The notes under the pieces were generated by a model. That model saw only the letters and a program-made list of their open reading frames with translations, searched no databases and was not told the origin of the DNA. Below, in pieces: positions 12,986 through 63,842 of a stretch of 64,000 nucleotides of DNA. Position numbers and translations under genes: made by a program. Source of the DNA: Luteimonas terrae (lineage in GTDB: Bacteria > Pseudomonadota > Gammaproteobacteria > Xanthomonadales > Xanthomonadaceae); contig NZ_SMTG01000002.1 in assembly GCF_004358165.1 (NCBI RefSeq), positions 992,001 through 1,056,000 on the forward strand, read 5' to 3'. Every line of letters starts with the position of its first letter. The stretch's first letter is position 1.

Positions 12986-13579
12986 ATGAAAAGCATCTGC
13001 GTCTACTGCGGCTCCAATGCCGGCAGCAAGCCCGTCTACGCCGATCGCGCGACCGCGCTGGGCGACCGTCTCGCGAAGGACGGCCTGCGTCTGGTCTACG
13101 GCGGCGGCAACGTCGGCCTGATGGGCACCGTCGCCAATGCCGTGCTCGATGCCGGCGGCCAAGTCACCGGCGTGATCCCGCAGCAGCTCGCCGACTGGGA
13201 AGTCGCGCACCGCGGCCTGACCGAACTGGAGATCGTCGATTCGATGCACGCGCGCAAGATGCGCATGTTCGAACTGTCCGACGGCTTCGTCGCCCTGCCC
13301 GGCGGCTTCGGCACGATGGAGGAGATCTTCGAGATGCTGACCTGGCGCCAGCTCGGCATCGGCAACAAGCCCTGCGCGTTTCTCGACATCGACGGGTTCT
13401 ACGCCCCGCTGATCGGCATGATCGACCGCATGGTCGAAGAGCGCTTCCTGCACCCCGACCAGCGCGCCGACCTGTGGTACGGCAGTGATATCGACGAGAT
13501 GCTGGCGTGGATGCGGGCGTACGAGCCGGCGCAAGCGAGTAAGTGGATCGATGAGAAGCGGCGGAGTGTGATGAAGTGA
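12986..13579 (+). CDS. LOG family protein (cytokinin riboside 5'-monophosphate phosphoribohydrolase-like)
   Basis: 197 residues. The family signature PGGFGTMEE (residues 105-113) and the preceding catalytic HARKM (88-92) identify a Lonely-Guy/TIGR00730 protein with a Rossmann-like fold (VYGGGNVGLMG at 38-48). Characterised members hydrolyse nucleoside 5'-monophosphates to free base and ribose phosphate. In bacteria without plant hosts the in vivo substrate is usually unknown. The gene follows the lpdA terminator and lies directly behind an inverted repeat. Confidence 0.88.
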   Translation: MKSICVYCGSNAGSKPVYADRATALGDRLAKDGLRLVYGGGNVGLMGTVANAVLDAGGQVTGVIPQQLADWEVAHRGLTELEIVDSMHARKMRMFELSDGFVALPGGFGTMEEIFEMLTWRQLGIGNKPCAFLDIDGFYAPLIGMIDRMVEERFLHPDQRADLWYGSDIDEMLAWMRAYEPAQASKWIDEKRRSVMK

Positions 13580-13671
13580 GGTAATGGTGGTGGTGGCGTG
13601 AAGCTCGTACGTTTGTGAAGTGGCTTGCGCTCTTCCCGCGTTGCTACGTCGCTTGGATCGGATTCCTTGCG

Positions 13672-13764
13672 AAAATGGATCCCAGCTTTCGCTGGGATGA
13701 CGGTGCCAGGTGTCGAGGCTTTCCTCCGCCCCGTCACCCCAGCGAAAGCTGGGGCCCATTTTGA
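13672..13764. repeat. Pair of inverted REP-like palindromes
   Basis: AAAATGGATCCCAGC-TTTC-GCTGGGATGACGG (13672-13702) is followed about 30 bp later by the same element in inverse orientation (13731-13764, ending in GGGGCCCATTTT). This is a BIME-like arrangement in the 275-bp gap between the LOG gene and the GIY-YIG gene. It gives the plain form of the element, without the extra palindrome seen at 4.7, 18.0 and 30.5 kb. Confidence 0.7.
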
Positions 13765-13854
13765 TCTTCGCGTGACCTTCTGCGGCGAAGTTCGCTGACA
13801 GCGCCCCTGCTCCGCCACCGGCACGATTGCCGCGTCGGAACACCGGGCGCCGAA

Positions 13855-14148
13855 ATGCGCGACCGCCTCCCCTGCACCTACATTCTCGCCAGCGCCCCGC
13901 GCGGCACGCTCTACATCGGGGTGACCTCCGATCTCGTGCAGCGAATATGGCAGCACCGCAACCATCTCGCACCCGGCTTTACATCGCAGCACCGCATCCA
14001 CCACCTCGTCTGGTTCGAAACCCACGATACGATGGAGGCCGCGATCACCCGCGAGAAGCGTCTGAAGGCCTGGCAGCGCCTTTGGAAGATCCAGCTCGTG
14101 GAATCCACCAACCCCCACTGGCACGACCTGTATCCTGACCTCGTCTGA
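13855..14148 (+). CDS. Small GIY-YIG domain protein (YhbQ-like)
   Basis: 97 residues, a lone GIY-YIG domain. TYILASAPRGTLYIGVTSDLVQRIWQHR carries the GIY/YIG pair (here TYI...LYIGV) and the catalytic arginine of helix 1; TREKRLKAWQRLWKIQLVE closes the domain. Such stand-alone domains are common in bacteria; some are nucleases on structured or damaged DNA, most are untested. It is not next to an intron or other mobile element, so a homing role is unlikely. No good ribosome site is seen. Confidence 0.85.
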   Translation: MRDRLPCTYILASAPRGTLYIGVTSDLVQRIWQHRNHLAPGFTSQHRIHHLVWFETHDTMEAAITREKRLKAWQRLWKIQLVESTNPHWHDLYPDLV

Positions 14149-46818: not shown

Positions 46819-49800
46819 ATGCCCATCCGATCCCGCTGCGCCGCGTCGCCTTGCCCGCAGCTGCCGCGCACATCCATCGCGCAGCCGCTGCTGGCCGCCC
46901 TGCTCGCCTGGTCCTCCGTCGTCTCTGCCGCCTTGCCGCCGCGCGGCGAATGGACGGCCTCCGCGTCGTCGACGCAGGTGGCGGCGCTCTCGCCGGTGCA
47001 CGCGATCGACGGCGACCGTAGCTCGCGCTGGGGCGGCAGCTTCTTGCCCGGGCACTGGTTCCAGGTGGACCTGGGGCGCGCCGCCGACGTCGGCGGCGTC
47101 TCGATTCTCTGGGACAGCGGTTTTCCGGTGCGCTGGACGCTTCAGACTTCGCTCGACGGCACGCACTGGGACGTCGCCTACACCAGTGTGGATTCGCGCG
47201 GCGACACCGACCTGATCGTCTTTCCCGCGCGGCAGGCGCGCTACATCCGGATCGCGAGCCCCTCGAAGTCCTCCGACTGGGCAACCTCGATCTTCGAATT
47301 CGAGCCGATCGCCGCCGACGCCGCGCCACGTCTGGACGGTCTGGCCGCGGTCGTCGACGGGGCCCGCCTGTTCGCCGCGGACGCGCCGCCCGCGCGTGTC
47401 GAAGCGCGCGGCCCCGCGCCGCGCACGCGCCAGCTCTCGCTCGAGTTGCCGCGCGCTGACGCCATCGCCGGGCTCGAGGTCTGGTGGGACGGGCCGCGTA
47501 ACGGCGCAACGCTCGAAGCCCGCGACGCGCAGGGACGCTGGACCGTCGTGGCCGAGGACCCGGGCCGCGACGGCACGCGCTCCTGGCTCGCCGGCGAGGC
47601 CGCGATTACGCCGACCGCCTTGCGCCTGGTGCTCGGCGACGTGGCCGATGGCGCGCCGTCGATCGCCCGCTTGCGGCTGCTCGGGCCCAGGCAGGTGCGC
47701 ACCCCGACGCGCCGCTACGAGATCGCGGCTTCGCGCGCGCATGCCGGGCTGTTCCCGTCGTCGCTGCACCAGCAACAGGTCTACTGGACCGCGCTGGGCA
47801 TTCCCGCCGGGCGCCAGAAATCGCTGCTCGACGAGTACGGCAATCTCGAGCCCTTCAAGGGCGGGCCGATGCTGCAGGCGGTCTGGCGCGGCGACGATGG
47901 CAAGGCCGCGGTGGCCGACAACGACCCCGACCGGCGTCATGCGCTGCGCGAGCGCTGGATGCCGATGCCCTCGGTCGAATGGCAGGCGCAGCCCGGTCTG
48001 ACGATCCGCAACGAGGCCTTCGCACTCGAGCAGCACGGCCAGCCGGTGACGCTGGTGCGATACCGGCTGCACAACGCCGGTCGCGCGCCGGTGGCGGGCA
48101 CGCTGTCGCTTTTGGTGCGCCCGCTGCAGGTCAATCCACCGTGGCAGCACGGCGGCTGCTCGCCGATCCGGCGGATCGCGATCGATGCCCTCGACGACCG
48201 CACGCGCGTGCGGGTCGACGGCCGCACCCTGCTCGCCTCGCTGACGCCGGTCGGCGCGGCCGGCGCGGCGCCCTTCGGTGCGCACGGCGAAAGCGAGATC
48301 ACTGCGTACGCTGCCCGCGGAACGCCACCGCCCGCGCGCGAGGCACGCGATCCCGACGGTCTCGCGGCCGGCATGCTGGCCTATCCGGTGCGCCTGGCGC
48401 CCGGCGCGCGCTCGGACATCGTCGTCGCCTTCCCGCTGGGCACCGCCGCGCTCGATCCGGCCAAGGGCGATCTGCCCGAGCCGCCCGCGCTCGACCTCGC
48501 CACGCTCTCTGCCGGCGCCACCACGCCGTCCGCCGCGTTCGACGCGCAGGCCGCGCGTGTCGCGGCAGGCTGGACGGCCCGCTTCGACGGCTTCGACGTC
48601 CGCCTGCCCGACCGCGATCTGGTCGACATGCTGCGCGCGCAGGGCGCCTACATGCTGGTCAACCAGACCGGCCCGGCGATGCAGCCGGGGCCGCGCAACT
48701 ACAACCGCTCGTTCCTGCGCGACGGCGCGGCGACGGCCGCGGTACTGCTGCGCATGGGCCAGCCGCAGATCGCGCGCGACTACCTGCGCTGGTACACCGA
48801 CCATGCGCTCAATCCCGACGGCATGGTCTCGCCCATCCTCAACGAGGACGGCAGCATCAATCGCGGTTTCGGCTCCGACATCGAATATGACAGCCAGGGC
48901 CAGTACATCCAGCTGGTCGCCGACGTGGCACGGCTCGACGGCGGTCCGGACACCGTGCGCGAATACCTGCCGGCGGTGACGTCGGCGATGCGCTTCCTGC
49001 AGACGCTGCGCGAACGCACCCTGGTGCCGGATTACATGGGCACGCAGCCGTCGCCGGAACGCTTCCGCGGCATCCTCGCGCCGTCGATCAGCCACGAGGG
49101 CTATTCGACGCCCACGCACAGCTACTGGGACGACTTCTACGGCATCAAGGGCTGGCACGACGGCGCATGGCTCGCCGACGCACTCGGCGATGTGCAGACC
49201 GCGAGCTGGGCCCGCGAACAGGGCCGCCAGCTGTCGGATGCCGTCGCCGCATCGATCCGGGCGACCATCGCGTGGAAGGGCATCGACTTCCTTCCCTCGT
49301 CTGCGGACCTCGGCGACAGCGACCCGACCAGCGTGTCGATCGCGCTCGACCCCACCGGCGCGCGTCACGTGCTGCCCGGGCGCGAACTGCGCACGACCTT
49401 CGATCGCTACCTCGCCCGGCAGTTCGGCGACCGCCTCGCGCCCGACGCGCTGTGGGCCTACACGCCTTACGAGGTCCGCAACGTCCTGACCTTCGTGCAC
49501 ATGGACCGGCCCGCCGATGCGCTGACGGTCCTGCAGGGCCTGCTCGCCGACCGGCGCCCGCGCGCCTGGCAGATGTGGCCCGAGGTCGTGCATTCGCGGC
49601 CGCGCTATCCCGGCTATATCGGCGACATGCCGCATACCTGGATCGGCGCCGAGTACGTGCGCACGCTCGTCGGCATGCTGCTGCATGAGGGCGACGACGG
49701 CCTGCACCTGCTGCCGGGCACGCCGCCCGCCTGGCTCGCGGGCGATGGGCTGGCGGTGCGCACGCTGCCAACCGCCTTCGGCCCCCTGACGATGGCCGCG

Positions 49801-49989
49801 CGGCAGACCGGCGACCGGCTCGAGCTCACGCTGGATGCGCCGCTGCGCGACGCACCGTCGGTCGAGGTCGTGTGGCCCAGCCGCACGCGGCCGACATCGG
49901 TCCAGGTCGACGGCCGCGAGATCACCGACTACGACGCACGCGGCGTGCGGCTGGCAGCGCCCTTCCGGCGACTCGAAGCGCGCTGGTAG
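46819..49989 (+). CDS. Secreted discoidin-domain protein with predicted alpha/alpha-barrel glycosidase domain
   Basis: 1056 residues. A signal peptide probably ends at SVVSA-ALPP (about 38). Residues 40-165 are an F5/8 type C (discoidin) domain (AIDGDRSSRWGGSF, FQVDLGRAADVGGVSILWD), and 170-300 look like a second, diverged one. A beta-sandwich region (about 310-580) holds RPLQVNPPWQ. The C-terminal half looks like a six-hairpin alpha/alpha barrel with NYNRSFLRDGAATAAVLLRM, SISHEGYSTPTHSYWDDFYG, GIDFLPSSADLGD, and WQMWPEVV. The same blocks recur in the lipoprotein at 52.4-55.6 kb. I do not recognise the CAZy family. Acidic residues in LRDGA, SHEGY and WPEVV are conserved and are candidate catalytic residues (inference). 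Confidence 0.75.
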   Translation: MPIRSRCAASPCPQLPRTSIAQPLLAALLAWSSVVSAALPPRGEWTASASSTQVAALSPVHAIDGDRSSRWGGSFLPGHWFQVDLGRAADVGGVSILWDSGFPVRWTLQTSLDGTHWDVAYTSVDSRGDTDLIVFPARQARYIRIASPSKSSDWATSIFEFEPIAADAAPRLDGLAAVVDGARLFAADAPPARVEARGPAPRTRQLSLELPRADAIAGLEVWWDGPRNGATLEARDAQGRWTVVAEDPGRDGTRSWLAGEAAITPTALRLVLGDVADGAPSIARLRLLGPRQVRTPTRRYEIAASRAHAGLFPSSLHQQQVYWTALGIPAGRQKSLLDEYGNLEPFKGGPMLQAVWRGDDGKAAVADNDPDRRHALRERWMPMPSVEWQAQPGLTIRNEAFALEQHGQPVTLVRYRLHNAGRAPVAGTLSLLVRPLQVNPPWQHGGCSPIRRIAIDALDDRTRVRVDGRTLLASLTPVGAAGAAPFGAHGESEITAYAARGTPPPAREARDPDGLAAGMLAYPVRLAPGARSDIVVAFPLGTAALDPAKGDLPEPPALDLATLSAGATTPSAAFDAQAARVAAGWTARFDGFDVRLPDRDLVDMLRAQGAYMLVNQTGPAMQPGPRNYNRSFLRDGAATAAVLLRMGQPQIARDYLRWYTDHALNPDGMVSPILNEDGSINRGFGSDIEYDSQGQYIQLVADVARLDGGPDTVREYLPAVTSAMRFLQTLRERTLVPDYMGTQPSPERFRGILAPSISHEGYSTPTHSYWDDFYGIKGWHDGAWLADALGDVQTASWAREQGRQLSDAVAASIRATIAWKGIDFLPSSADLGDSDPTSVSIALDPTGARHVLPGRELRTTFDRYLARQFGDRLAPDALWAYTPYEVRNVLTFVHMDRPADALTVLQGLLADRRPRAWQMWPEVVHSRPRYPGYIGDMPHTWIGAEYVRTLVGMLLHEGDDGLHLLPGTPPAWLAGDGLAVRTLPTAFGPLTMAARQTGDRLELTLDAPLRDAPSVEVVWPSRTRPTSVQVDGREITDYDARGVRLAAPFRRLEARW

Positions 49990-50007
49990 GCGCGCGCTTC
50001 GCGACGT

Positions 50008-52221
50008 TCAGTCGAGCTGGCGCGCCGGCAGGCGCAGCGCGGCGCGCGCGCCGATGTCGGCGGCGGACTGGCCGAGCACGATGTCGTAATCACCGGCCGC
50101 GATGCGCCAGCTGCGGTCCTCGGGGTGATAGTCGGCGAACAGGCGCGGCGCGAGTTCCACTTCGACCTCGCGCGACTCGCCCGGCTGCAGCTCGACACGC
50201 TGCCAGCCGACCAGACGCAGCGGCGTGGTGTGGCCTTCGGGCAGATGCACGTAGAGCTGCGGCACGGTGGCGCCGGCACGATCGCCGGTGTTGCGGACAT
50301 TGAAGCGCGCGAGGATGCGCGCGCCTTCGCTGCGCACCGTGAGATCCGAAGTGGCGAAGGTTGTGTACGACAGACCGTGGCCGAAGGCGTAGCGCGGGGT
50401 CAGACCCTTGGCCGCGAACCAGCGATAGCCGACGTTGGCGCCCTCGATGTCGTAGTCGATCGTGTCCTCGGGCTTCTGCGGCGGGTTGAAGCCGAGCCCC
50501 GGGATCGACGGGCGTGGCAGCTGCGACACGTCGACGGGCCAGCTCACCGGCAGGTGGCCGGACGGATTCACCGCACCGGTGAGCAGCTGCGCGATCGCCT
50601 CGCCGCCGCGGATGCCCGGATACCACGCCTGCAGCACGGCCGGTACGCGCTCGACCCACGGCATCTCGATCGGGCCGTTGGTCTGCAGCACCACGATGTT
50701 GCGCGGATTGGCCGCGGCCACGGCGGCGATCAGCGCGTCCTGGCCATCGGGCAGGCGCATGTCCGGCAGGTCGACCGACTCGGCCGCCCATTGCGTGGCG
50801 AACACGATGGCGACGTCGGCCTCGCGCGCGAGGCGTGCCGCGGCGGCGCGATCGCGACCATCGGCGAAGTCGATGCGTGCATCCGGCAGCGTCGCGCGCA
50901 ATGCGAGCAGCGGCGAAGACGGCTGGAACATCACGGGCCCCGGCCACGTGGTCGGCTTCAAACCGCTCACCGCGGTGGTGCCGCGCGAGGTCCAGCCCAC
51001 CATCGACGAGCCGCCGCCGGCGATCACGCCCTTGTCCGCGTGCCCGCCGATGACCGCGATGCGACGCACGGTCTTCGCCAACGGCAGCGTGGCGTTCTCG
51101 TTACGCAGCAGCACCGCGCCGGCCTCGGCCGTGCGCTGCGCCACGTCGAAACCGATCGCATCGAGCGCATCGTCGACCGGCTGTCGCTGAGGCGGGTGTT
51201 CGAACGCGCCGACCGCGATGAAGCTGCGCAGGATGCGATGCACCATGTCGTCGAGCCGCGCCTGCGGCACGGTACCGGCGCCTACCGCCATGCGCAGCGG
51301 CCCATCGAAATACACGGCCTTGTCGAAGACCTCGCCGGCCGACTGCTGGTCCAGACCGGCGTTCGCGGCCTTCGATGCACTGTGCACGCCGCCCCAGTCC
51401 GACATCACGTAACCGGGGTACTGCCAGTCGCGCTTGAGCACGTTGTTGAGCAGTTCGTCGTGCTCGCAGCCGTAGGTGCCGTTGATGCGGTTGTAGCTGC
51501 ACATCACCGAGCCGGGCTTGCCGATGTCGATGGCGATGCGGAAGGCTAGCAGATCGGATTCGTGCATCGCGCGGTCGCCGATCTCGGCGCTGTGGAAGTT
51601 GCGCGCGGTCTCCATGTCGTTGAGCGCGTAGTGCTTCATCGTCGAGAGCACGTGCTGCGACTGCACGCCGCGGATCGACTCGCCGACCAGCGTGCCGGCA
51701 AGCAAAGGGTCTTCGCCGGCGTACTCGAAGTTGCGCCCGTTGCGCGGATCGCGCTGCAGGTTGACGCTGCCGGCCAGCAGCACGTTGAAGCCTTGCCGCC
51801 AGGCTTCGCGGCCCATGGTCTCGCCGCCCTTGAAGGCGATCTCGCGGCTCCAGGTCGAGGCGGTCATCGGGCCGGACGGCATCGCGGTGGCGTGGTCGCC
51901 TTCGCGTGCACCGCCGGGATTGGTGACGCCGAGGCCGGCATCGACCAGCCCCTGCGACGGAATGCCCAGGCGCGGGATCGGTGCGACGTAGCCGGCCGCG
52001 ACCAGCGCCTCGTCGGGCTTCTTCTCACCGATCGCGAAGCGGCTGCGGATCAGCGCGAATTTCTCGTCTTGGGTCATCTCCGCGACCAGCAAGGCGGCGC
52101 GTTCGTCGGGTGACTTCGCCACGTCCATCCACGGCTGCGAGGCCGGTGCGTCCTGCGCGAATGCGGGCATCGCCGCGAGCAACGCGCATGCCAGCATGCG
52201 CACCGGAAACCTGGTCTTCAT
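50008..52221 (-). CDS. bglX: Periplasmic GH3 beta-glucosidase (BglX type)
   Basis: 737 residues. A Sec signal peptide ends at AMPAFA-QDAP. The GH3 N-terminal barrel has the nucleophile Asp in YPGYVMSDWGGVHSA and the KHYALNDMETARN block. The C-terminal alpha/beta sandwich and fibronectin-III-like domain (APRLFADYHPEDRSWRIAAG) complete the usual three-part architecture. It removes glucose from the non-reducing ends of beta-glucosides. The ATG at 52221 has a strong GGAGGGG ribosome site; the 31-codon extension is rejected. It is convergent with the discoidin gene (18 bp between stops). Confidence 0.92.
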   Translation of the reverse strand: MKTRFPVRMLACALLAAMPAFAQDAPASQPWMDVAKSPDERAALLVAEMTQDEKFALIRSRFAIGEKKPDEALVAAGYVAPIPRLGIPSQGLVDAGLGVTNPGGAREGDHATAMPSGPMTASTWSREIAFKGGETMGREAWRQGFNVLLAGSVNLQRDPRNGRNFEYAGEDPLLAGTLVGESIRGVQSQHVLSTMKHYALNDMETARNFHSAEIGDRAMHESDLLAFRIAIDIGKPGSVMCSYNRINGTYGCEHDELLNNVLKRDWQYPGYVMSDWGGVHSASKAANAGLDQQSAGEVFDKAVYFDGPLRMAVGAGTVPQARLDDMVHRILRSFIAVGAFEHPPQRQPVDDALDAIGFDVAQRTAEAGAVLLRNENATLPLAKTVRRIAVIGGHADKGVIAGGGSSMVGWTSRGTTAVSGLKPTTWPGPVMFQPSSPLLALRATLPDARIDFADGRDRAAAARLAREADVAIVFATQWAAESVDLPDMRLPDGQDALIAAVAAANPRNIVVLQTNGPIEMPWVERVPAVLQAWYPGIRGGEAIAQLLTGAVNPSGHLPVSWPVDVSQLPRPSIPGLGFNPPQKPEDTIDYDIEGANVGYRWFAAKGLTPRYAFGHGLSYTTFATSDLTVRSEGARILARFNVRNTGDRAGATVPQLYVHLPEGHTTPLRLVGWQRVELQPGESREVEVELAPRLFADYHPEDRSWRIAAGDYDIVLGQSAADIGARAALRLPARQLD

Positions 52222-52259
52222 CGAACGCCCCTCCCCTCGAAATGTGTGCTTTGCAGAAG

Positions 52260-52311
52260 CGGCCCACGGCCGCGATGGCTTCACCGGGAAGCCCATCGCG
52301 GCCATGGGCCG
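52260..52311 (-). terminator. Long hairpin between the discoidin lipoprotein gene and bglX
   Basis: CGGCCCACGGCCGCGATGG pairs with CCATCGCGGCCATGGGCCG with one mismatch. The stem continues through CTTC/GAAG with a one-base bulge to a 5-nt loop, about 23 pairs in all. No U-tract. It lies 38 nt before the bglX ATG and 48 nt after the upstream gene's stop, so it could set the relative mRNA levels of the two enzymes. Confidence 0.55.
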
Positions 52312-52359
52312 CACCTGCAGCGTTCGCGCCCGCCGACGAGTGCCGGCAGGCGTCGTGAC

Positions 52360-55300
52360 TCAACCCGCGCCGGCGATCCGCACCTTCGCGCCGGCGCGCG
52401 TGATCCGCAGTTCGTTGCCCTGCCACTGCGCCGGCTGGCCGTCGATCGTGGTCGCGCCCGGCACGCTCGAATACGGCCACTGCAGCACCAGACCGCCTTC
52501 GGGCAGACCGCTGTTCGCGGCGACGTCGAGCAGCAGCGCGTCGCCGTCACGGCGCAGCGAATAGCCCACCGTGCCCTGCGGCGTCCGCATGCCGCGCAGT
52601 GCCACGCCCTCGTCCAGCCACGCGGCCGGCACGCCGGCCGCGAGCACCAGGCTGTCGTCGACCTCGCGCACGTAGGCGAACATGTCCAGCGCCGAGCGCA
52701 CGAAGTCGGAACCCACCCAGGCATGCGGCAGATCGCCGAGGAAGAACGGCTCGCGCGGCGTCGGCGTCACCACCTCGCCCCACTGGTTCCAGGGCTGCGG
52801 CGCGCGGTGACCGAAGAACCACTCGCGCACTTCGTTGGCGCGCTCGCGCCAGCCCAGACGCACGAACGCGGCGACGTTGCGCCACTCGTAGGGCGTGTAG
52901 TTCTTCCATTCCAGCGTGCCGTCGCGGCGGCCCGAGAACTGCGTCCAGTAGCGCTCGAAGGTGTTGGTCAGCAGCGGCTCGGGCAGACGGCCCTGTTCGC
53001 CGCCCGGCGCCAGCGCGATCGTCGTCGAGGTCGCGTCGAAATCGCCGAGTTCGGCGGCGCCCGGCAGGAAGTCGATGCCGTGCTGCTCGGCGGCCTTGCG
53101 CAGGGACGCGTCGAGATCGACGCGGAACTCGTCGCGAGCCGCGGCCATGCGCTTGGCGTCGTCGGCCTTGCCGAGCGCCTCGGCGATCTCCACCGCGTCC
53201 TTGTAACCACGCAGCGCCCAGAAGTTGTCCCAGTACGAATGCATCGGCTTGGCCGAATAGCCTTCGTGGCTGATCGAGGCCGGCATCATCCCGTAGAAAG
53301 CCGCATTGCGTTGGCGGTTCTCCTCGGTGCGTTCGCTGGCGCGCAGCTCTTCCATGTAGGTGTAGGCGCCGAACACGTGCGGCCACATCTTCTGCAGGAA
53401 GGCGTCGTCGCCGGTGTAGCGCCAGTACTCGGCGATGTTGAAGATCAGCTCGCCATGGCTGTCGTTCTCCGGCACCGGGTCGCTGCCGCGGTCGTCGACG
53501 CAGCACGGCACCTTGCCGTTGTCGAACTGGTAGGGCGCGTAGAACTCGACGTATTCCTTGACCACTTCCGGGCGGCCCATGCGCAGCAGGCCTTCGGAAA
53601 TCATCGCGCCGTCGCGGATCCAGCTGCGCGCGTACGAACGCGTGCCCGGTTGCAGGCGCGGGCCGATACGCGAGATCAGCATGTGCGCCAGCGACGTGCG
53701 CAGCGTGTCGGCCAGATCCTTGCCGGCGGCCGGCACGTCGAAGCCCACTTCATCGAGCTTGCCGTGCCACTCGCGCGCCATCGCGTCCTGCATCGACTGC
53801 GCATTCCAGTTCGCCGGCGCGCTCGACATCTCGCCGGTCATCGGAATCAGCAGATCGAACTCGCGTGACTCGCCCGGCGCCAGCCGCACGTCGTAGACCA
53901 TCGCGCCGGACGCCAGCGCCTGCGGGTCGTCGACTTCGGTCGTCGACGGCCAGGTGCCGGTCGCCAGATGCTCGACGTCCATGCCCGCATCGAACGTGGT
54001 CGCGAACGCGGCCTGCGCCGGCTGGCGTGCGAACACGCGCGGCGTGCCGTCGACGCGCACGCCGTCGGTGCTCACGCCGAGCTGGCGCAGCGGGCTGACG
54101 CCGCCGGTGATGTTGAGGAACTGGGTCGGCGGGTTGACCTGCATCGGCCGCACCGCGAGCGCGAGCTGGTAATCGCGCGCCTCGTTGCCGGGATTGGTCA
54201 GGCGGTAGCGCGCGACCAGCTGCGAATCCTTGGGCGTCCCGCGGGCGAATCCGGTGACGCGCAGGTTCAGCGCGTCATGGGTCCAGTCGACACTCGGGAT
54301 CGGCAGATAGTCGTCCTGCAGGGTCTGCGCGATCTTGGCGTCGGCCCAGGTCACCAGTGCATCGCCGACGCGTACGAAGGGCTCGATGGAGAACCCGCCG
54401 GCCGCGACCTCGATCGCGCCGTCCTCGCCGATCAGGCCCTGCTCGTAACCGCCATCGAGACCGAGGATGGTCCAGTAGGCCTGCTCGCCGCTGAAACCAC
54501 GCGGGAACTGGCCCTTGGGCCGGTCCCTGGCGACCGCTTCGAGCACGTCGTTGGGGTGCTCGGACATCGCCAGCGGCTGCACCGCAACTTCGCTCAATGC
54601 GAAGCCCTCACCGGGACCGCCCTGCAGATCGAGACCGATGTAGCGCGCCTCGGCCTCCGGCAGCGACAGCCAGTCGATGCCGCCGTTGCCCGCGGTGACC
54701 TCGCGGACCTGCGTCCAGGTCTCGCCGTCGCTCGACAGCGAGACCGTATAGGCCGATGCATGACGCCCCGGCTGCCACTGCAGGCGCAGACCGCCGAATT
54801 CCCGGGTCTTGCCCAGATCGAGCACGAGGTTCTGCGGCGCGGCCGGCGTGACCCATGCGCTTTCGGCGTTGCCGTCGACGACATTGCCGACATCGGCAGG
54901 CGTGGTCGTGGAGGCCGCGCTCGCGGTCAGCGGCGAGGTGTCGTCGGCCGGCAGCGCTTCGAACGTCAGCTGGTCGAAGCAGACCGTGCCCTTGCCGCCG
55001 GCGTTGTTGTAAATCGTGAACTCGATCTTCTCGCTGGCCCGCAGCGTCTTGTCTTCGTCCGGTCCCCAGGCCTTGTCGATGTGGCGCTTGCGATAGCGCA
55101 CGTCGGTCCAGTCGTCCGGGAAATCGTATTTGGGCCGATTGACCCACCACACGTTGTCGCCGCTGGCGTCGATGAGCTTGAACTGCAGGTCGTTGGCCGG
55201 CGACTCGCCGCGCATGCGGAAGGCGAAGCGGTAGTTTTCCGGATACTCGAGCTTGAGCGCACGCTGGATGCCGACGTGGCCGGATACGCCGTTGTAGTCG

Positions 55301-55608
55301 TAATCCAGGCACACGGCCTTGCCGCCGTCGACGTCGACCTGGCGCAGCGTGCCGGTGACCTGGTTGGAGGTCACGAGGGTCCACGTCGAGGGATCGTCGA
55401 AGTCGTCGAGGATGCGGATGCCGTCGCCGCCTGTGGCAGCTGCCGTCGTCGCGCCGTCGGGCGCGGGCGAGACGTTGCAGGCCCCAAGCGCGGTGGCCAG
55501 CGCGGCGATACCGAGTGCGCGTACCGCGTTTCGAAATTGGAGTGCGCCAGCAGGCGTCATGTCGGTGTCGGCAGGCGCGCAGGTCGCGCGGGTGTCGAGG
55601 GTCTTCAT
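52360..55608 (-). CDS. Lipoprotein with CBM-like and discoidin domains and predicted alpha/alpha-barrel glycosidase domain
   Basis: 1082 residues (1066 if the ATG at 55560 is used; that start gives a more normal signal peptide, MTPAGALQFRNAVRALGIAA). Lipobox ALGAC at Cys44, with Asn at +2. Residues 65-225 (ILDDFDDPSTWTLV...GTVCFDQLTFEAL) resemble CBM11/CIA30-type beta-sandwich modules. About 240-350 is a discoidin domain, followed by a beta-rich region with RPMQVNPPTQF. A catalytic-looking alpha/alpha barrel follows, with SYARSWIRDGAMISEGLLRM, PASISHEGYSAKPMHSYWDN, GIDFLPGAAELGD and WNQWGEVV. It is a clear paralog of the secreted protein at 46.8-50.0 kb. Probably displayed on the outer membrane. 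CAZy family not recognised. Confidence 0.75.
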   Translation of the reverse strand: MKTLDTRATCAPADTDMTPAGALQFRNAVRALGIAALATALGACNVSPAPDGATTAAATGGDGIRILDDFDDPSTWTLVTSNQVTGTLRQVDVDGGKAVCLDYDYNGVSGHVGIQRALKLEYPENYRFAFRMRGESPANDLQFKLIDASGDNVWWVNRPKYDFPDDWTDVRYRKRHIDKAWGPDEDKTLRASEKIEFTIYNNAGGKGTVCFDQLTFEALPADDTSPLTASAASTTTPADVGNVVDGNAESAWVTPAAPQNLVLDLGKTREFGGLRLQWQPGRHASAYTVSLSSDGETWTQVREVTAGNGGIDWLSLPEAEARYIGLDLQGGPGEGFALSEVAVQPLAMSEHPNDVLEAVARDRPKGQFPRGFSGEQAYWTILGLDGGYEQGLIGEDGAIEVAAGGFSIEPFVRVGDALVTWADAKIAQTLQDDYLPIPSVDWTHDALNLRVTGFARGTPKDSQLVARYRLTNPGNEARDYQLALAVRPMQVNPPTQFLNITGGVSPLRQLGVSTDGVRVDGTPRVFARQPAQAAFATTFDAGMDVEHLATGTWPSTTEVDDPQALASGAMVYDVRLAPGESREFDLLIPMTGEMSSAPANWNAQSMQDAMAREWHGKLDEVGFDVPAAGKDLADTLRTSLAHMLISRIGPRLQPGTRSYARSWIRDGAMISEGLLRMGRPEVVKEYVEFYAPYQFDNGKVPCCVDDRGSDPVPENDSHGELIFNIAEYWRYTGDDAFLQKMWPHVFGAYTYMEELRASERTEENRQRNAAFYGMMPASISHEGYSAKPMHSYWDNFWALRGYKDAVEIAEALGKADDAKRMAAARDEFRVDLDASLRKAAEQHGIDFLPGAAELGDFDATSTTIALAPGGEQGRLPEPLLTNTFERYWTQFSGRRDGTLEWKNYTPYEWRNVAAFVRLGWRERANEVREWFFGHRAPQPWNQWGEVVTPTPREPFFLGDLPHAWVGSDFVRSALDMFAYVREVDDSLVLAAGVPAAWLDEGVALRGMRTPQGTVGYSLRRDGDALLLDVAANSGLPEGGLVLQWPYSSVPGATTIDGQPAQWQGNELRITRAGAKVRIAGAG

Positions 55609-55820: not shown

Positions 55821-56672
55821 TCACCCCTTCACGCTGCCGAGCAGCAGGCCCTGGATGTAGTAGCGCTGCAGCGCGAGGAACAGCAGCAACACCGGAATCA
55901 CGGTGACGACGGCGCCGGCCATCATCATCTCGACGTCCTGGATGTGCTCGCGCGACAGTGCCGCCAGTGCGACGGGCAGCGTGTAGTTGGTCTGGTCGGT
56001 CAATACGATCAGCGGCCACATGAAGTCGTTCCACGCGGCCATGAAGGTGAAGATGGTCAGCGTGACCAGCACCGGCTTGAGCATCGGCAGCACGATCTGG
56101 AAAAAGATCCGCAGCTCGCCGGCGCCGTCGATGCGCGCGGCCTCCAGCAGTTCGTCGGGAATCGACCGCGCGTACTGGCGCACCAGGAAGATGCCGAACA
56201 CCGTCGCCAGACCCGGGATGATCACCGCGCCGAAGCTGTTGACCAGGCCCATGCCCTTCATCATCAGGAACAGCGGCAACATCGCCACCTGCGCGGGAAT
56301 CACCAGCGCGGCCAGCAGGATCTGGAACAGCCGCTCTCGGCCCTTGAACTGCAGCTTGGCGAAGGCATAGCCGGCCATGGTGTTGACCAGCAGCGCACCG
56401 AAGGTGATCGCGGCCGAGATCATCAGACTGTTGGCGAAGTAGCGGCCCATGCCGGCACGCGCGAACAGCTGCTGGTAGTTGTCGAACGTCAGTGCGGACG
56501 GCAGCAGCGGCGGCGGAAAGCCGCTGGCCTCGCCGGTCGGCATGAACGACACCGACAGCATCCACGCCAGCGGCGCCAGCGCCACGACGGCCAGTGCGAC
56601 CAGCCCACCGTTGACCAGCCACGCCGACCAGCGCGAGGCGCCGACTTCGCGATACCTGCCCACCGCGCTCAT
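55821..56672 (-). CDS. ABC sugar permease, MalG/UgpE type
   Basis: 283 residues, six predicted membrane helices (first at about 20-42, NGGLVALAVVALAPLAWML). The EAA loop that contacts the ATPase is ELLEAARIDGAGELRIFFQIVLP. It is the second inner-membrane subunit of a CUT1 (carbohydrate) importer. ATG at 56672 overlaps the stop of the preceding permease by 4 nt (ATGA). No ATPase gene follows; the ATPase at 39.3-40.4 kb is the likely partner. Confidence 0.9.
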   Translation of the reverse strand: MSAVGRYREVGASRWSAWLVNGGLVALAVVALAPLAWMLSVSFMPTGEASGFPPPLLPSALTFDNYQQLFARAGMGRYFANSLMISAAITFGALLVNTMAGYAFAKLQFKGRERLFQILLAALVIPAQVAMLPLFLMMKGMGLVNSFGAVIIPGLATVFGIFLVRQYARSIPDELLEAARIDGAGELRIFFQIVLPMLKPVLVTLTIFTFMAAWNDFMWPLIVLTDQTNYTLPVALAALSREHIQDVEMMMAGAVVTVIPVLLLFLALQRYYIQGLLLGSVKG

Positions 56673-57547
56673 ACCAGCTCCCTCCGGCGCCCGAAGCGCA
56701 GCAGCAGCGTGGTCACGCCGAGGATGATCAGGAACAGCAGGAAGGCCACCGCCGACGCACGGCCGAGGTTCCACCACATGAAGCCTTCCTCGTACATGAA
56801 GTACAGCACGCTGACCGTGCTCTGCAGCGGATCGCCGCGGGTCATCACGTAGGGCTCGGCGAACAGCTGGAAATAGCCCGACACGGTGATCACCGCGACC
56901 ACCAGCAGCACCGGCCCGAGCATCGGCAGCGTCACGTGCAGGAACTGCTGCCAGCGCGAGGCGCCGTCGATGCGCGCGGCCTCGTAGAGGTCTTCGGGAA
57001 TCGCGGCCAGACCCGCGATGAAGATCACCATGTTGTAGCCGAAGTTCTTCCACACCGCGAACAGGATGATCGTCGGCATCGCCCAGGTCGGATCGCCCAG
57101 CCAGTCGATCGGCGCGATGCCGACGTGGCCCAGCGCCCAGTTCACCAGGCCGTAGCTGGTGTGGAACAGATAGCGCCAGATCACCGCCACCGCGACCAGC
57201 GTGGTCACCACGGGCGCGAACAGCGCGGTGCGGAACAGACCCTTGAAGCGCGCGACTTTGGCGTTGAGCAGCAGCGCCGCGCCCAGCGACACGCCGATCG
57301 ACAGCGGTACGCCGATGACCACGAAGTAGGCTGTGTTGCCCAGCGACTTCCAGAACAGCGGCGTCTGCAGCAGATCGAAATAGTTGCCCAGCGCGACGAA
57401 GCGCAGGTTCGACAGATCGGCCAGCGCGTAGAGATCGAAATCGGTCAGGCTCAGCAGCAGCGCCGAGGCGACCGGAATGCCGAAGAAGATGCCCAGAACG
57501 ATCAGCGCCGGGCCGGCGAAGATCCAGCCGGCGGTACTAGCGCGCAT
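56669..57547 (-). CDS. ABC sugar permease, MalF/UgpA type
   Basis: 292 residues, six predicted membrane helices (first at about 8-28, IFAGPALIVLGIFFGIPVAS). The EAA loop is DLYEAARIDGASRWQQFLHVTLP. It is the first inner-membrane subunit of the CUT1 importer. The start MRASTAGWI at 57547 lies inside the end of the binding-protein gene (11-nt overlap), so binding protein and permeases are co-translated. Its stop overlaps the next permease start. Confidence 0.9.
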   Translation of the reverse strand: MRASTAGWIFAGPALIVLGIFFGIPVASALLLSLTDFDLYALADLSNLRFVALGNYFDLLQTPLFWKSLGNTAYFVVIGVPLSIGVSLGAALLLNAKVARFKGLFRTALFAPVVTTLVAVAVIWRYLFHTSYGLVNWALGHVGIAPIDWLGDPTWAMPTIILFAVWKNFGYNMVIFIAGLAAIPEDLYEAARIDGASRWQQFLHVTLPMLGPVLLVVAVITVSGYFQLFAEPYVMTRGDPLQSTVSVLYFMYEEGFMWWNLGRASAVAFLLFLIILGVTTLLLRFGRRRELV

Positions 57548-58892
57548 GGGTCGCTCCCGTGTGCAGCGCGGTCGCAGGTGCGGCGCCCGCTTCCGCTTCG
57601 CGCTCGCGCACCCAACGGCGCTTTTCAAGCAGTGTGTCGACGCGCGCATCCAGATCGCGCAACGCCTGTTCCTGGGCCATGCCGCCGCGCACGACACGTT
57701 CGCTCATCAGGCGCATTTCCTGCACGATCCGCTCCCACTCCAGCACCTTGGGCGTCGGTTCGACGCGCTCGAGCTGGTCGCGGAATGCCTGCGCATACGG
57801 GTCCTCGCGCAGCTGCGGGAACTCCCAGGTGCTGCGGCGTGGCGGCAGGTTGCCGATCATCGCGTGGAAGCGCTGCTGGATGTCCGGACGCGACAGGAAT
57901 TCCATCAGCTGCCAGCTCGCTTCCTTGTTGGGCGAATCGCGGAACATCACCAGCGAGGTGCCGCCGGCAATGCCTGCGCCCGGCCCGTCGGGACCGGGCA
58001 GCGGCGCGGTGCCCCACTGGTCCTGCAGCTCGGCAGGCAACCGCGTGCGGAACTCGCGGATGTTCCAGGGACCGGACACGTAGAACGAGAAGAAGCCGCG
58101 GCCGAACTCGTCCCAGACGTTGGAGATCTGCGTCTCCGACATCTTCGGCGCCCAGCCCTTGTCGAACATGCCGGCATAGAAGCCGAGCGCGCGCTGGAAG
58201 CCGGGGCTGGAGAAATTGCCGCGGCTGTCGTCGTCGCGCAGCAGCGGATCGTCCTGCTGCAGGCCGAAGGACAGCAGCTGCTCGAACTCGTTGAGCGGCA
58301 GCATCACCGCGTAGCGGTCCGGACCGACGTGCGCCTTGACCGCCGCCATCGCGGTTTCCCATTCCTGCCACGTGCGGGGCAGCATGGTCACGCCGGCGGC
58401 GGCGAGGATGTCCTTGCGATAGAAGATCAGGCGCGTGTCGACGTACCAGGGCACGCCGAGCAGCGTGTCGTCGACGACGTTGGTGTGCCAGATGCCGGGG
58501 AAGTAATCCGCTTCGTCGATGACCGTCGAGCGGTCGACGCGCGACTGCAGCGGTTCCAGCGCGCCGAGCACCGCGAACTCCGGCACCCAGGTATTGCCGA
58601 GCTGGCAGATGTCCGGCAACGCGTCGGCCGCGAACGCGGTGAGCAGCTTCTCGTGCGCCGAGGTCCACGGAATCTGCTGGATCTCGACACGGATGCCGGG
58701 ATGTTGGGCCTCGAACTCCCGGACCAGTTCCGACACCACCTCGGCCTCGCGGCCCATCGCCCAGAAACGGACGACCGTCTGCTCGTCCCGCTTCGCGCAG
58801 GCGGCGAGCAGCGCGACGGCCAGCAGCAGGCAGATGACGCGCGCCGCCGCGGTGAAGCGGCGGGCGCGTGGCACGTGTCGGAATGCGTGCAA
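57537..58892 (-). CDS. ABC sugar-binding lipoprotein (SBP family 1)
   Basis: 451 residues from a TTG at 58892. TTG is preferred because a GGAG ribosome site lies 7 nt upstream and no ATG precedes the signal peptide; GTG at 58874 is the alternative. The signal peptide ends in a lipobox (AVALLAAC, Cys32), so the binding protein is membrane-anchored, less usual for a Gram-negative importer. The mature part has the SBP-1 features VVRFWAMGREAEVV, PWTSAHEKLLTAFA and GVPWYVDTRLIFYRKDIL. The gene starts 4 nt after the GH144-like gene. Confidence 0.88.
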   Translation of the reverse strand: MHAFRHVPRARRFTAAARVICLLLAVALLAACAKRDEQTVVRFWAMGREAEVVSELVREFEAQHPGIRVEIQQIPWTSAHEKLLTAFAADALPDICQLGNTWVPEFAVLGALEPLQSRVDRSTVIDEADYFPGIWHTNVVDDTLLGVPWYVDTRLIFYRKDILAAAGVTMLPRTWQEWETAMAAVKAHVGPDRYAVMLPLNEFEQLLSFGLQQDDPLLRDDDSRGNFSSPGFQRALGFYAGMFDKGWAPKMSETQISNVWDEFGRGFFSFYVSGPWNIREFRTRLPAELQDQWGTAPLPGPDGPGAGIAGGTSLVMFRDSPNKEASWQLMEFLSRPDIQQRFHAMIGNLPPRRSTWEFPQLREDPYAQAFRDQLERVEPTPKVLEWERIVQEMRLMSERVVRGGMAQEQALRDLDARVDTLLEKRRWVREREAEAGAAPATALHTGATHAR

Positions 58893-58901
58893 GCGCTTAC
58901 T
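58888..58901 (-). promoter_or_regulatory. LacI-operator-like palindrome at the binding-protein start
   Basis: On the plus strand TGCAAGCGCTTACT matches TGNAANCGNTTNCA except for the last base. It covers the GH144-like stop and the TTG start of the binding-protein gene, so it could be an internal operator or chance sequence. Confidence 0.4.
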
Positions 58902-60564
58902 CCGCCGGCACCGGATCGGACGCGCGGGCCGGCGCCGGGGCCGGTGCGCGCTCGTCGCGGTCGGCGTCCTGGTTGGCCGCGCGCGATTCGGCGATGCCCA
59001 TCGAACGCGCCATCGCCGCGTCGGCGTCCGGCGGACCCGAATCCTTGGGCTCGTCCTCGCCGGCCAGCCAGCCACCGGTGAAGCCGGCGCGCTCCAGACC
59101 CGCGCGGATGTACGGGTTCTTCTTCATCACGTTCCAGACGAAGTCGTTCCGGTAGTTCGAGATCATCGCCAGGATCGGGCCCTGGTCGATCGCGATGTAG
59201 TCGCTGGCCACCCAGCCCTTGCCCGGCACGATGCGGCCGGTCTTCAGCGGCACGTCCTCGTAGGTGAAGCTCGGGTTGAACGAGTCGAGGAAGCCGTAGC
59301 TCGAATAGAGGTAGTCACCGTAGCGGCGGTGCATCTCCTCGGTCGCGGGAATCACGATTTCCGGCGCGAACGCGATCGAGGCGACCGCCGCGGTCGGTGC
59401 GAGCGTGCCGTCGTCGAACGCGACGTCCAGACCCGCACCGCGGGCGCTGTAGTGGCGGAACTCGCGCTGCTCGCCGTTGAAATCCTGGTCGGTGCGCTGC
59501 GGACCATCGCTGGCGGTCAGACCCCAGACGTTCTCGCCGTAGTCCTTCCAGCCCATCGGGTTGTCGATGGCGTACTGGCGCTGCGCATAGGTCGCACGGC
59601 GGCTGTTCTCGAAGTAGTCGATGCCGCGGCGACGCATGTAATCGTCGCGGATGCCGCGGAAGTCGACCCACACATGCGTGTACTGGTGACCGAAATGCGG
59701 CGCGAAGCTCAGGTACTCCTGCCCGCGGAACACGCCCCAGGACTTGTCGTAGGTGCGCGTCCACACTTCCCAGGCTTCCGGCTCGACCGCATGCGTCGGC
59801 GAACCCAGCGCGAGGATGTAGACCAGCATCGCTTCGTCGTAGCCGGTCCAGTCGTGCTGGATGAAGCCGCTTTCAGGGTACCAGCCCATCGAGATCAGCG
59901 GCTTGCGCTGCTGCAGGAACGGCCAGCGCACGTTGCGATAGAGCTTGTCGGCCAGTTCGCGGATCTCGACCTCGCGCGGGTCGTCACGGTCGTAGTACGA
60001 CTGCGCGAACAGCACGCCCATCATCATCAGGCCGGTGTCGACACTCGACAGCTCAACCCACGGCTCGAAGCGGTGGCCGGTCTGCATGTCGATGAAGTGA
60101 TAGAAGAAGCCCTGATGACCGGCGGTGCCGGTCGCCTGCGGGCCCATCTTGACGTTGCTGAAGAACTTCAGCGTTGTCAGGGTGCGATCCACCGCCTGCG
60201 TGCGGCTGACCCAGCCGCGCTCGATGCCGATCGGATACGCGGTCAGCGCATAACCCACCGCGGCCACGCTCGAGAAGGGGCGCGAGGGAAAGCGGTCCGG
60301 TGTCAGCCCGTTGACCTCGTTGGTCGTGTCCCAGAAATACTGGAACGTGCGGCGCTCGATGTCGGCGAACAGCGGCGGCAGCTCCGGCGGTCCCTTTGCC
60401 TCTTCCTCGACGGGCGCAGCCACCTCGGGCACCTGCTCGATGGGGCCGGGCTTGGGCGGCGGCACCGCCGGTTCGGCGGGCTCCTGCTTGCCGCAGCCGG
60501 CCAGGAACAACGCGGCGAGCGCGACGAGAATCAGGAGTTGGAACGCACGGAGACGGGATTGCAT
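58897..60564 (-). CDS. GH144-like (glycoamylase-domain) lipoprotein, predicted endo-beta-1,2-glucanase
   Basis: 555 residues. Lipoprotein signal MQSRLRAFQLLILVALAALF with lipobox LAGC (Cys24) and Gly at +2. A Pro/Glu-rich linker (25-65) is followed by the catalytic domain: FADIERRTFQYFWDTTN, FPSRPFSSVAAVGYALTAYP, GFFYHFIDMQTG, SVDTGLMMMGVLFA, GYDEAMLVYILALGSP, and FAPHFGHQYTHVWVDFRGIRD. This is the PF10091 glycoamylase-like domain shared with GH144, whose characterised member cuts beta-1,2-glucan. A 55-residue disordered Ala/Asp/Pro tail ends the protein. The substrate is inferred from the family and the neighbours; automatic naming as glucoamylase would mislead. Confidence 0.8.
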   Translation of the reverse strand: MQSRLRAFQLLILVALAALFLAGCGKQEPAEPAVPPPKPGPIEQVPEVAAPVEEEAKGPPELPPLFADIERRTFQYFWDTTNEVNGLTPDRFPSRPFSSVAAVGYALTAYPIGIERGWVSRTQAVDRTLTTLKFFSNVKMGPQATGTAGHQGFFYHFIDMQTGHRFEPWVELSSVDTGLMMMGVLFAQSYYDRDDPREVEIRELADKLYRNVRWPFLQQRKPLISMGWYPESGFIQHDWTGYDEAMLVYILALGSPTHAVEPEAWEVWTRTYDKSWGVFRGQEYLSFAPHFGHQYTHVWVDFRGIRDDYMRRRGIDYFENSRRATYAQRQYAIDNPMGWKDYGENVWGLTASDGPQRTDQDFNGEQREFRHYSARGAGLDVAFDDGTLAPTAAVASIAFAPEIVIPATEEMHRRYGDYLYSSYGFLDSFNPSFTYEDVPLKTGRIVPGKGWVASDYIAIDQGPILAMISNYRNDFVWNVMKKNPYIRAGLERAGFTGGWLAGEDEPKDSGPPDADAAMARSMGIAESRAANQDADRDERAPAPAPARASDPVPAE

Positions 60565-60583
60565 CGTGAAGAAAACCTCGCGG

Positions 60584-60609
60584 TGAAATCGTTTACAGCG
60601 GTGAGTATA
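60584..60609 (-). promoter_or_regulatory. LacI-type operator and -10 box before the GH144-like gene
   Basis: TGAAATCGTTTACA (60584-60597) fits TGNAANCGNTTNCA at every fixed position. On the minus strand a TATACT box (60604-60609) lies 6 nt upstream of it, so the operator would cover the transcription start. The ATG follows 19 nt after the operator. The arrangement mirrors the one at zwf. Confidence 0.72.
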
Positions 60610-60640
60610 AAACTGCCGATGCCCCGAGAGGCACCGGCAG
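60606..60640 (-). terminator. Rho-independent terminator of the TonB receptor gene
   Basis: Minus-strand CTGCCGGTGCC pairs with GGCATCGGCAG and is followed by TTTTAT. It lies 10 nt after the receptor stop and overlaps the -10 of the next promoter. Confidence 0.75.
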
Positions 60641-60649
60641 CGGGGTGTA

Positions 60650-63616: not shown

Positions 63617-63842
63617 GTCGTCGGTCTCTATCTTCAGGGGATGTTTGTACGGACGGCATTCCCGCCATCCTGTGCACCACTGCAGCTGCAGCAACGCGGT
63701 TGCGTCATCTCGAACGTCCGTCGGAGGGGCGCATCCATCGAGCCGACACGCGACGACGCCCGCGCCCCCCTGCGCGCACAAGCGTCTTCGGTATCGGACT
63801 TGATGTCATGCAACCCCTCCCAAGGTGCCGACGGCGACCCGG

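Follow-up and report, generated by a model that had tools for sequence, protein, structure and literature searches.

The subject of this report is a pair of genes, here named DAB1 and DAB2, found within a window of 64,000 nucleotides from Luteimonas terrae (contig NZ_SMTG01000002.1, positions 992,001 to 1,056,000); "the window" denotes that whole stretch throughout. Their products belong to a real, conserved and unnamed enzyme family with a barrel like that of glycoside hydrolase (GH) clan GH-L. As judged from sequence comparisons, this family, which carries no name in Pfam, NCBIfam or the PDB sequences, on balance appears related to clan GH-L with GH15 as its nearest family. The DAB2 gene lies in a conserved gene set with a GH144 endo-beta-1,2-glucanase, and a role for DAB2 in the use of beta-1,2-glucans is very probable. 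The two genes, and one domain of DAB2, are located as follows.

46819..49989, + strand: DAB1, 1056 aa, a putatively exported protein of discoidin, super-sandwich and (alpha/alpha)6-barrel parts (open reading frame (ORF), Pfam, AlphaFold, Foldseek).
52360..55608, - strand: DAB2, 1082 aa, with a lipobox-like site, an N-terminal beta domain and discoidin, super-sandwich and (alpha/alpha)6-barrel parts (ORF, AlphaFold, Foldseek, gene order).
54949..55419, - strand: N-terminal beta domain of DAB2, resembling a carbohydrate-binding module (CBM), from the secondary structure of the AlphaFold model; the stretch is absent from DAB1.

A first-pass annotation had described two paralogous proteins of 1056 and 1082 residues, and both ORFs were recovered at these lengths and positions. 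BLASTP aligned 927 positions of the two proteins with 32% identity (E 4e-114), far beyond chance, and by this alignment they are paralogs. The motif blocks it had listed as shared are all present in both proteins, yet the last of them reads W-x-x-W-(P/G)-E-V-V rather than W-x-x-(W/G)-(P/G)-EVV. Discoidin domain PF00754 was matched by Pfam at residues 46-160 of DAB1 and 229-338 of DAB2, as was the discoidin model PF22633 in both. Inspection by eye gave a lipobox-like L41-G42-A43-C44 in DAB2 and a plain signal-like N-terminus in DAB1. The extra CBM-like module proposed for DAB2 agrees with the N-terminal beta domain of its predicted structure, and a DAB2 ortholog (L088) gave a sub-threshold match to CBM_4_9 (E 0.094).

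The AlphaFold model of DAB2 residues 44-1082, made with 67 sequences, had a mean pLDDT of 87.9 and a pTM of 0.85, with many strands followed by barrel helices in the catalytic part; the model of the DAB1 catalytic part, made with 30 sequences, reached a pLDDT of 81.5 and a pTM of 0.85. Foldseek searches against the PDB listed 50 rows per model, all of which were barrel glycosidases, phosphorylases or cyclic beta-1,2-glucan synthases (CGS). With DAB2, GH94 phosphorylases came first (8hob, E 2.7e-15) and a GH15 dextran dextrinase third (9ju0, E 4.3e-15), followed lower down by GH116, GH95, GH78, GH65 and other GH15 entries; template modelling scores by query length were 0.31-0.47 in the 50 rows listed. 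With the DAB1 catalytic part, the exo-beta-D-arabinanase ExoMA2 (8ic6, E 5.9e-17), which we take to be a GH116 enzyme, headed the list, with GH94 and other GH116 entries next and GH15 appearing from rank 22; family numbers of other PDB entries whose titles give none are likewise our assumption. The predicted architecture is a super-sandwich with an (alpha/alpha)6 barrel, as in GH94, GH15, GH116, GH95 and GH78, and the alpha/alpha-barrel glycosidase fold suggested in the first pass is upheld by the models of both proteins.

With whole proteins as queries, nothing scored above the Pfam cut-offs outside the discoidin part of DAB1 or DAB2 and nothing above the NCBIfam cut-offs for either, and the only confident matches in a sequence search of the PDB were discoidin/CBM relatives. 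Profile searches against the PDB sequences returned nothing significant, the best being a GH94 chain (E 0.094) and an amylo-alpha-1,6-glucosidase chain (E 0.012); the latter match was short, as was one to a GH78 chain (E 0.077). PHROGs likewise placed the catalytic part in no family with confidence, and a viral fold library returned mostly discoidin or tail proteins, with a GH65 protein of a Tetraselmis virus as the one named barrel match seen, and was uninformative. Searches of an open-licence library of papers found no characterised DAB-type protein. The earlier statement that no known family could be recognised is in keeping with these Pfam, NCBIfam and PDB results. Its companion, that automatic annotation would report the discoidin domain only, was nearly right: with the whole protein as query the GH78 model PF17389 scored 23.4, short of its cut-off of 24.5, but it exceeded that cut-off on the matched stretch (26 bits).

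Among 36 members, Pfam gave weak matches to PF17389 (GH78) in 30 (best E 5e-7), to PF06202 (GH133) in 23 (best E 8.4e-6) and to PF22124 (GH95) in 12 (best E 0.0025). The oligosaccharide amylase model TIGR01577, which we take to represent GH15, was matched by 16 of the 21 members searched against NCBIfam (best E 1.1e-8, far under its cut-off), a trehalase model by 6 and an archaeal debranching model by 5, both also far under cut-off. The GH78, GH133, GH95 and GH15 models are presumably all of alpha-acting enzymes.

A search of the phylum identified two remote relatives (L093 and L094), and a third (L102) came from a retrieved genomic region. These proteins of 742-782 aa have no discoidin domain and no Pfam match. 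The hhalign comparison of this remote family with the DAB family gave an E of 1.8e-26 over 590 columns, most of the remote family's length, and the most remote of the 39 sequences then aligned (the 36 members plus these three) are 21-23% identical to DAB2. In comparison with a 13-sequence GH15 profile, the 36-sequence DAB profile scored 46.5 (E 5.5e-5, probability 66.3) and the 39-sequence profile, including the remote family, 72.8 (E 2.2e-8, probability 95.3), with 16-19% identity in the aligned part. Null scores from 30 column-shuffled profiles each had maxima of 21.5 for GH15, 22.1 for GH94 and 21.4 for GH65, and the reversed GH15 profile scored 23.5. The real GH94 profile (8 sequences) scored 44.5, with an E of 1.4e-4 when the remote family was included and a weak 0.02 with the 36-sequence profile alone. 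GH65 was rejected as a parent, its profile scoring at the null level (21.5) with only two GH65 sequences used. By profile, GH15 is the nearest of the three families compared.

Several residues are invariant in all 39 aligned sequences, in DAB2 numbering R665-D666, E714, D716, S780, E782, Y792-W793-D794, E945 and G958-D959; the invariant acids are D666, E714, D716, E782, D794, E945 and D959. The Trp two positions before E945 is kept in 38 of the 39. In GH15, two Glu residues serve as general acid and general base, and an Arg-Asp pair binds the terminal glucose. The hhalign alignment pairs the RD motif (R665-D666) and E945 with the GH15 RD motif and general base Glu, and E945 was also matched side by side. 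The residues of chief interest are these.

48721..48723, + strand: DAB1 Asp635 of RDGA, aligned with the GH15 RD motif and invariant; by analogy with GH15, presumably a minus-1 subsite residue.
49096..49098, + strand: DAB1 Glu760 of SISHEGYS, candidate general acid by spacing only; all 39 sequences have it.
49582..49584, + strand: DAB1 Glu922 of WPEVV, candidate general base, aligned with the GH15 base Glu by hhalign.
53611..53613, - strand: DAB2 Asp666 of RDGA, aligned with the GH15 RD motif and invariant.
53263..53265, - strand: DAB2 Glu782 of SISHEGYS, candidate general acid, invariant and placed by spacing.
52774..52776, - strand: DAB2 Glu945 of WGEVV, candidate general base, aligned with the GH15 base Glu by hhalign.

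The Asp of RDGA and the Glu residues of SHEGY and EVV had been singled out in the first pass. All three proved invariant and two of them align with GH15 active-site motifs, the SHEGY Glu being paired by spacing only. Side-by-side inspection by eye puts SHEGY of DAB2 and the WE motif of GH15 at similar distances before the next helix, and H-T/S-Y is common to DAB2 and some GH15 rows. In the SHEGY region DAB1 is one residue shorter, and the remote family is without the His.

By analogy with GH15, hydrolysis with inversion is fairly probable. The Arg-Asp of the RDG motif would hold the terminal glucose, with Glu782 (DAB2 numbering) acting as general acid and Glu945 as general base. The reading we favour, with some reserve, is that DAB1 and DAB2 are exported, inverting, GH15-like exo-glucosidases and that DAB2 belongs to a system for using beta-1,2-glucan; catalysis, inversion, exo action, the alpha configuration and the compartment are features that we infer. 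Several observations weigh against this placement. The GH15 model PF00723 was not listed at E 1 for DAB1, DAB2 or any of the 36 members, and hhalign did not align E782 with the GH15 acid. Foldseek, using the predicted models, ranked GH94 (for DAB2) and GH116 plus GH94 (for DAB1) above GH15. GH94 also exceeded its own shuffled null in the profile comparison, and that comparison covered GH15, GH94 and GH65.

Part of this evidence would suit another enzyme, an exo-beta-1,2-glucanase or sophorohydrolase of GH94- or GH116-like descent, which would trim GH144 products from one end with no other exo-enzyme needed. The top Foldseek matches, GH94 for DAB2 and GH116 then GH94 for DAB1, fit such descent, as does a GH94 profile score of 44.5 against a null maximum of 22.1; moreover a GH3 gene is rarely present, leaving DAB2 as the only other conserved exported hydrolase seen in the locus. 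However, GH15 stands clearly above GH94 by profile (72.8 against 44.5, in the comparison of GH15, GH94 and GH65), a further invariant Glu, which aligns with the general base of GH15, speaks against a phosphorylase, and the weak Pfam and NCBIfam matches with most members are to GH78, GH133, GH95 and GH15 models. We consider this explanation rather unlikely.

The genes adjoining DAB1 and DAB2 in the window are as follows.

50008..52314, - strand: GH3 beta-glucosidase-like gene between DAB1 and DAB2 (Pfam), outside the conserved order.
55821..57053, - strand: ATP-binding cassette (ABC) permease 2, in the conserved order.
56669..57697, - strand: ABC permease 1, in the conserved order.
57537..59075, - strand: solute-binding protein (PDB chain matches).
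58897..60753, - strand: GH144 endo-beta-1,2-glucanase (Pfam PF10091, PDB match), with a lipobox-like LAGC by eye.
60650..63781, - strand: TonB-dependent receptor (Pfam, gene order).

Conservation of the locus was surveyed in the best 80 of 268 related stretches, nearly all from records titled with Lysobacteraceae genus names; the 70 that hold at least 23 kb are counted as full loci. The order TonB receptor, GH144, binding protein, permease 1, permease 2, DAB2 is kept on one strand in 69 of the 70, the exception (L043) being without a detected receptor, and this set may form one transcript. Upstream of the receptor a gene cluster is present in 67 of the 80 loci (with ORFs chosen by a simple script), LacI being found in all five members scanned; edd and eda lie nearby in 39 of the 80 and a malK-like gene in 43. 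In L040, DAB2 is followed by an Exo_endo_phos gene (12994-13971) whose gene cluster spans 17 of the 80 loci, only the L040 member having been scanned. Near the remote family, L094 adjoins a glycosyltransferase family 4 (GT4) gene and a phosphodiesterase/Exo_endo_phos gene, L093 adjoins a VTT-domain gene, and the Exo_endo_phos domain recurs in L098 as an unexplained common neighbour. One record, titled Bacillus subtilis SK7B5 (L042), carries a Stenotrophomonas-like DAB2 gene set, and therefore the assembly is probably contaminated or mislabelled.

Among 198 genomes of the window's family, 98 hold a DAB2 ortholog, the matches being spread over 30 of 54 genera. At E 0.001 there were 102 matching genomes; four of them were left out, G393 and G529 because only the discoidin part matched and G387 and G460 because they have only a DAB1-type protein. 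GH144 (E < 1e-100) is present in all 98 and in 97 of them on the same contig, within 8 kb, with starts 3.2-7.2 kb apart; these genomes share ancestry, and the count does not represent 98 independent events. GH144 occurs in 107 of the 198 genomes after six weak matches of 113 were left out (G374, G393, G406, G435, G455 and G479, best E 7e-29 to 9e-4), and nine of the 107 are without DAB2 (G383, G387, G460, G502, G510, G511, G529, G538 and G554). Outside the family, DAB2 was found in 2 of 190 genomes of another class, beside GH144, binding-protein and permease genes in both; a receptor was identified in the one genome scanned for it.

The GH144-like neighbour noted in the first pass was borne out. 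It is a close homolog, probably the ortholog, of XCC2207 of Xanthomonas campestris (XcSGL, PDB 8xul, E 1.3e-265), which is described as active on beta-1,2-glucans (PMC12102758). XCC2208, next to it by number, appears in a list of TonB-receptor-like proteins as one that lacks a canonical plug domain (PMC1790865). The binding protein matched PDB chains 3uor (E 2.1e-190), Lin1841 (E 8e-68), 7c63 (sugar-binding, E 8.9e-37) and 8art (E 2e-33), the last being the first chain named maltose-binding. Lin1841, a beta-1,2-glucooligosaccharide binder reported to bind Sop3-5 (PMC12369401), is its nearest PDB relative of known ligand. The chain 3uor is the putative maltose/trehalose-binding Xac-MalE, whose ligand and specificity are listed as unknown (PMC7676653); despite that name, the gene neighbours and Lin1841 point to beta-1,2-glucooligosaccharides. 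Genes for a beta-1,2-glucanase and an oligosaccharide importer thus stand side by side in the locus, as a beta-1,2-glucan utilisation locus requires.

The name of 3uor (PMC7676653) would also be consistent with DAB proteins acting on another alpha-glucoside, such as an alpha-glucan, trehalose or a glucosylated exopolysaccharide, and sharing the locus through a mixed diet. The nearest named models, of an oligosaccharide amylase, a trehalase and a debranching enzyme, would agree, yet the strict linkage to GH144 in all 98 DAB2 genomes and a binding protein which, 3uor aside, is nearest to Lin1841, ahead of 7c63 and 8art, make this very improbable. That DAB2 is instead a non-catalytic glycan-binding or chaperone-like protein, its discoidin and beta domains holding glucan at the receptor, would account for its large non-catalytic part in a gene set already including an endoglucanase, but is very improbable given seven acids invariant across sequences as remote as 21-23% identity, three of them in or near GH15-like motifs.

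Under the favoured reading of DAB2 as a GH15-like exo-glucosidase, the TonB receptor would bring the glucan in, GH144 would cut it, DAB2 would remove a residue or linkage beyond the reach of GH144, the ABC importer would take up the oligosaccharides, and glucose would enter the Entner-Doudoroff pathway. Because GH144 yields beta-1,2 fragments and the importer looks fit for them, a second conserved, exported, GH15-like enzyme would be expected to act on what GH144 leaves, for example a linkage other than beta-1,2.

A tentative proposal by analogy, offered as a lead and not as a result, is that DAB2 is an alpha-1,6-glucosidase for alpha-1,6-cyclised beta-1,2-glucans, the osmoregulated periplasmic glucans (OPG) of Xanthomonas type. 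GH144 would open or shorten the ring, and DAB2 would remove the alpha-1,6-linked glucose that blocks import. A GH186 enzyme of Xanthomonas makes a cyclic glucan of 16 glucose units in which a single alpha-1,6 bond closes the ring (PMC11228985, PMC11842490), and an enzyme opening this link is not named in the available text of the 2025 review of beta-1,2-glucan enzymes (PMC11842490). GH186 is present in 76 of the 98 DAB2 genomes against 8 of the 100 without DAB2 (counts uncorrected for kinship), which fits loosely. Other findings count against the proposal. GH186 is missing from 22 DAB2 genomes, which could be scavenging the glucan. By alignment, the GH186 protein of the window genome keeps the acid D379 and, of three cyclisation residues, R477, but its product is uncertain because W76 is replaced by Tyr and D343 by Ala; the former change is also described for clade 4 members and for some of those in clade 3 (PMC11228985). 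The same genome has a CGS-like gene (a 2901-aa open frame with a GH94 domain, named for its length and domain), and Foldseek with the predicted models favours beta-acting families. Holding both CGS-like (L133) and GH186 (L104) proteins, the window genome may make more than one beta-1,2-glucan.

The first-pass annotation had also placed a GH3 enzyme in the saccharide locus and proposed a division of labour between a soluble and a lipid-anchored protein. The GH3 gene was found at more than 80% identity in only 4 of the 70 full loci, with a partial match below 40% in 4 more and no match at E 1e-20 in 62; it lies outside the conserved system, and the link was dropped. As read by eye, the two window proteins differ in their putative anchoring, but the anchor is seen only in loci close to the window. 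A lipobox script matched 11 of 79 ORFs, nine of which are near relatives of the window and look real; the count is a lower bound from a rough script, several other ORFs being cut inside the domain or in the upstream stretch. On this rough test the lipid anchor was dropped as a conserved trait. In 2 of the 80 loci DAB2 has a DAB1 copy within reach, and the division of labour is unsupported as a conserved trait because neither the GH3 gene, the anchor nor the pairing of DAB1 with DAB2 is conserved. DAB1-type copies occur in at least 21 of the 198 genomes, 19 of them with DAB2 (at most three candidates scored per genome). A third paralog in the window genome (C5:876368-879439) is 58% identical to DAB1; it adjoins GH16 and glutaminase genes (L101:5883-11500), away from the GH144 locus.

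The family is widespread and unnamed, and its tie to one defined polysaccharide by strict gene order makes its substrate directly testable. If DAB2 were alpha-1,6-acting, it would represent a new GH family, complete the utilisation pathway in about half (98 of 198) of the family genomes sampled and suggest beta-1,2-glucooligosaccharides as the ligands of the X. citri 'MalE'. The locus would then serve specifically to consume or recycle a bacterial glucan on which plant infection depends.

Several known systems can be set beside the DAB proteins. GH15 (glucoamylase, glucodextranase and dextran dextrinase) belongs to clan GH-L and shares with them the super-sandwich and (alpha/alpha)6 barrel, the RD motif, a base Glu followed by a G-N/D-x-P block, and the best profile score of the three families; unlike GH15, the DAB proteins have low identity (16-19%) to that family, no PF00723 match at E 1, a long N-terminal discoidin part and a beta-1,2-glucanase locus. 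GH94 (cellobiose and 1,2-beta-oligoglucan phosphorylases, CGS) supplies the best Foldseek match of DAB2 and the second-best profile score, but that score is well under GH15, and DAB has the invariant Glu945, at whose position a phosphorylase needs no Glu. GH116 (beta-glucosidase and ExoMA2), compared by fold only, holds the top Foldseek match of DAB1, with no Pfam match listed. The barrel domains of GH78, GH133 and GH95 resemble DAB through the weak Pfam matches described above, the PDB matches to GH78 and amylo-alpha-1,6-glucosidase chains being short and not significant. GH94 is described as including beta-1,2 enzymes (PMC3960220). As for the locus, the available text on sgl clusters (PMC11842490, PMC12102758, PMC12369401) does not mention a DAB-type enzyme, in which the window locus differs. 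The lin1839-1841 genes of Listeria innocua, like the window locus, combine a beta-1,2-glucan enzyme with an oligosaccharide-binding protein and an ABC importer.

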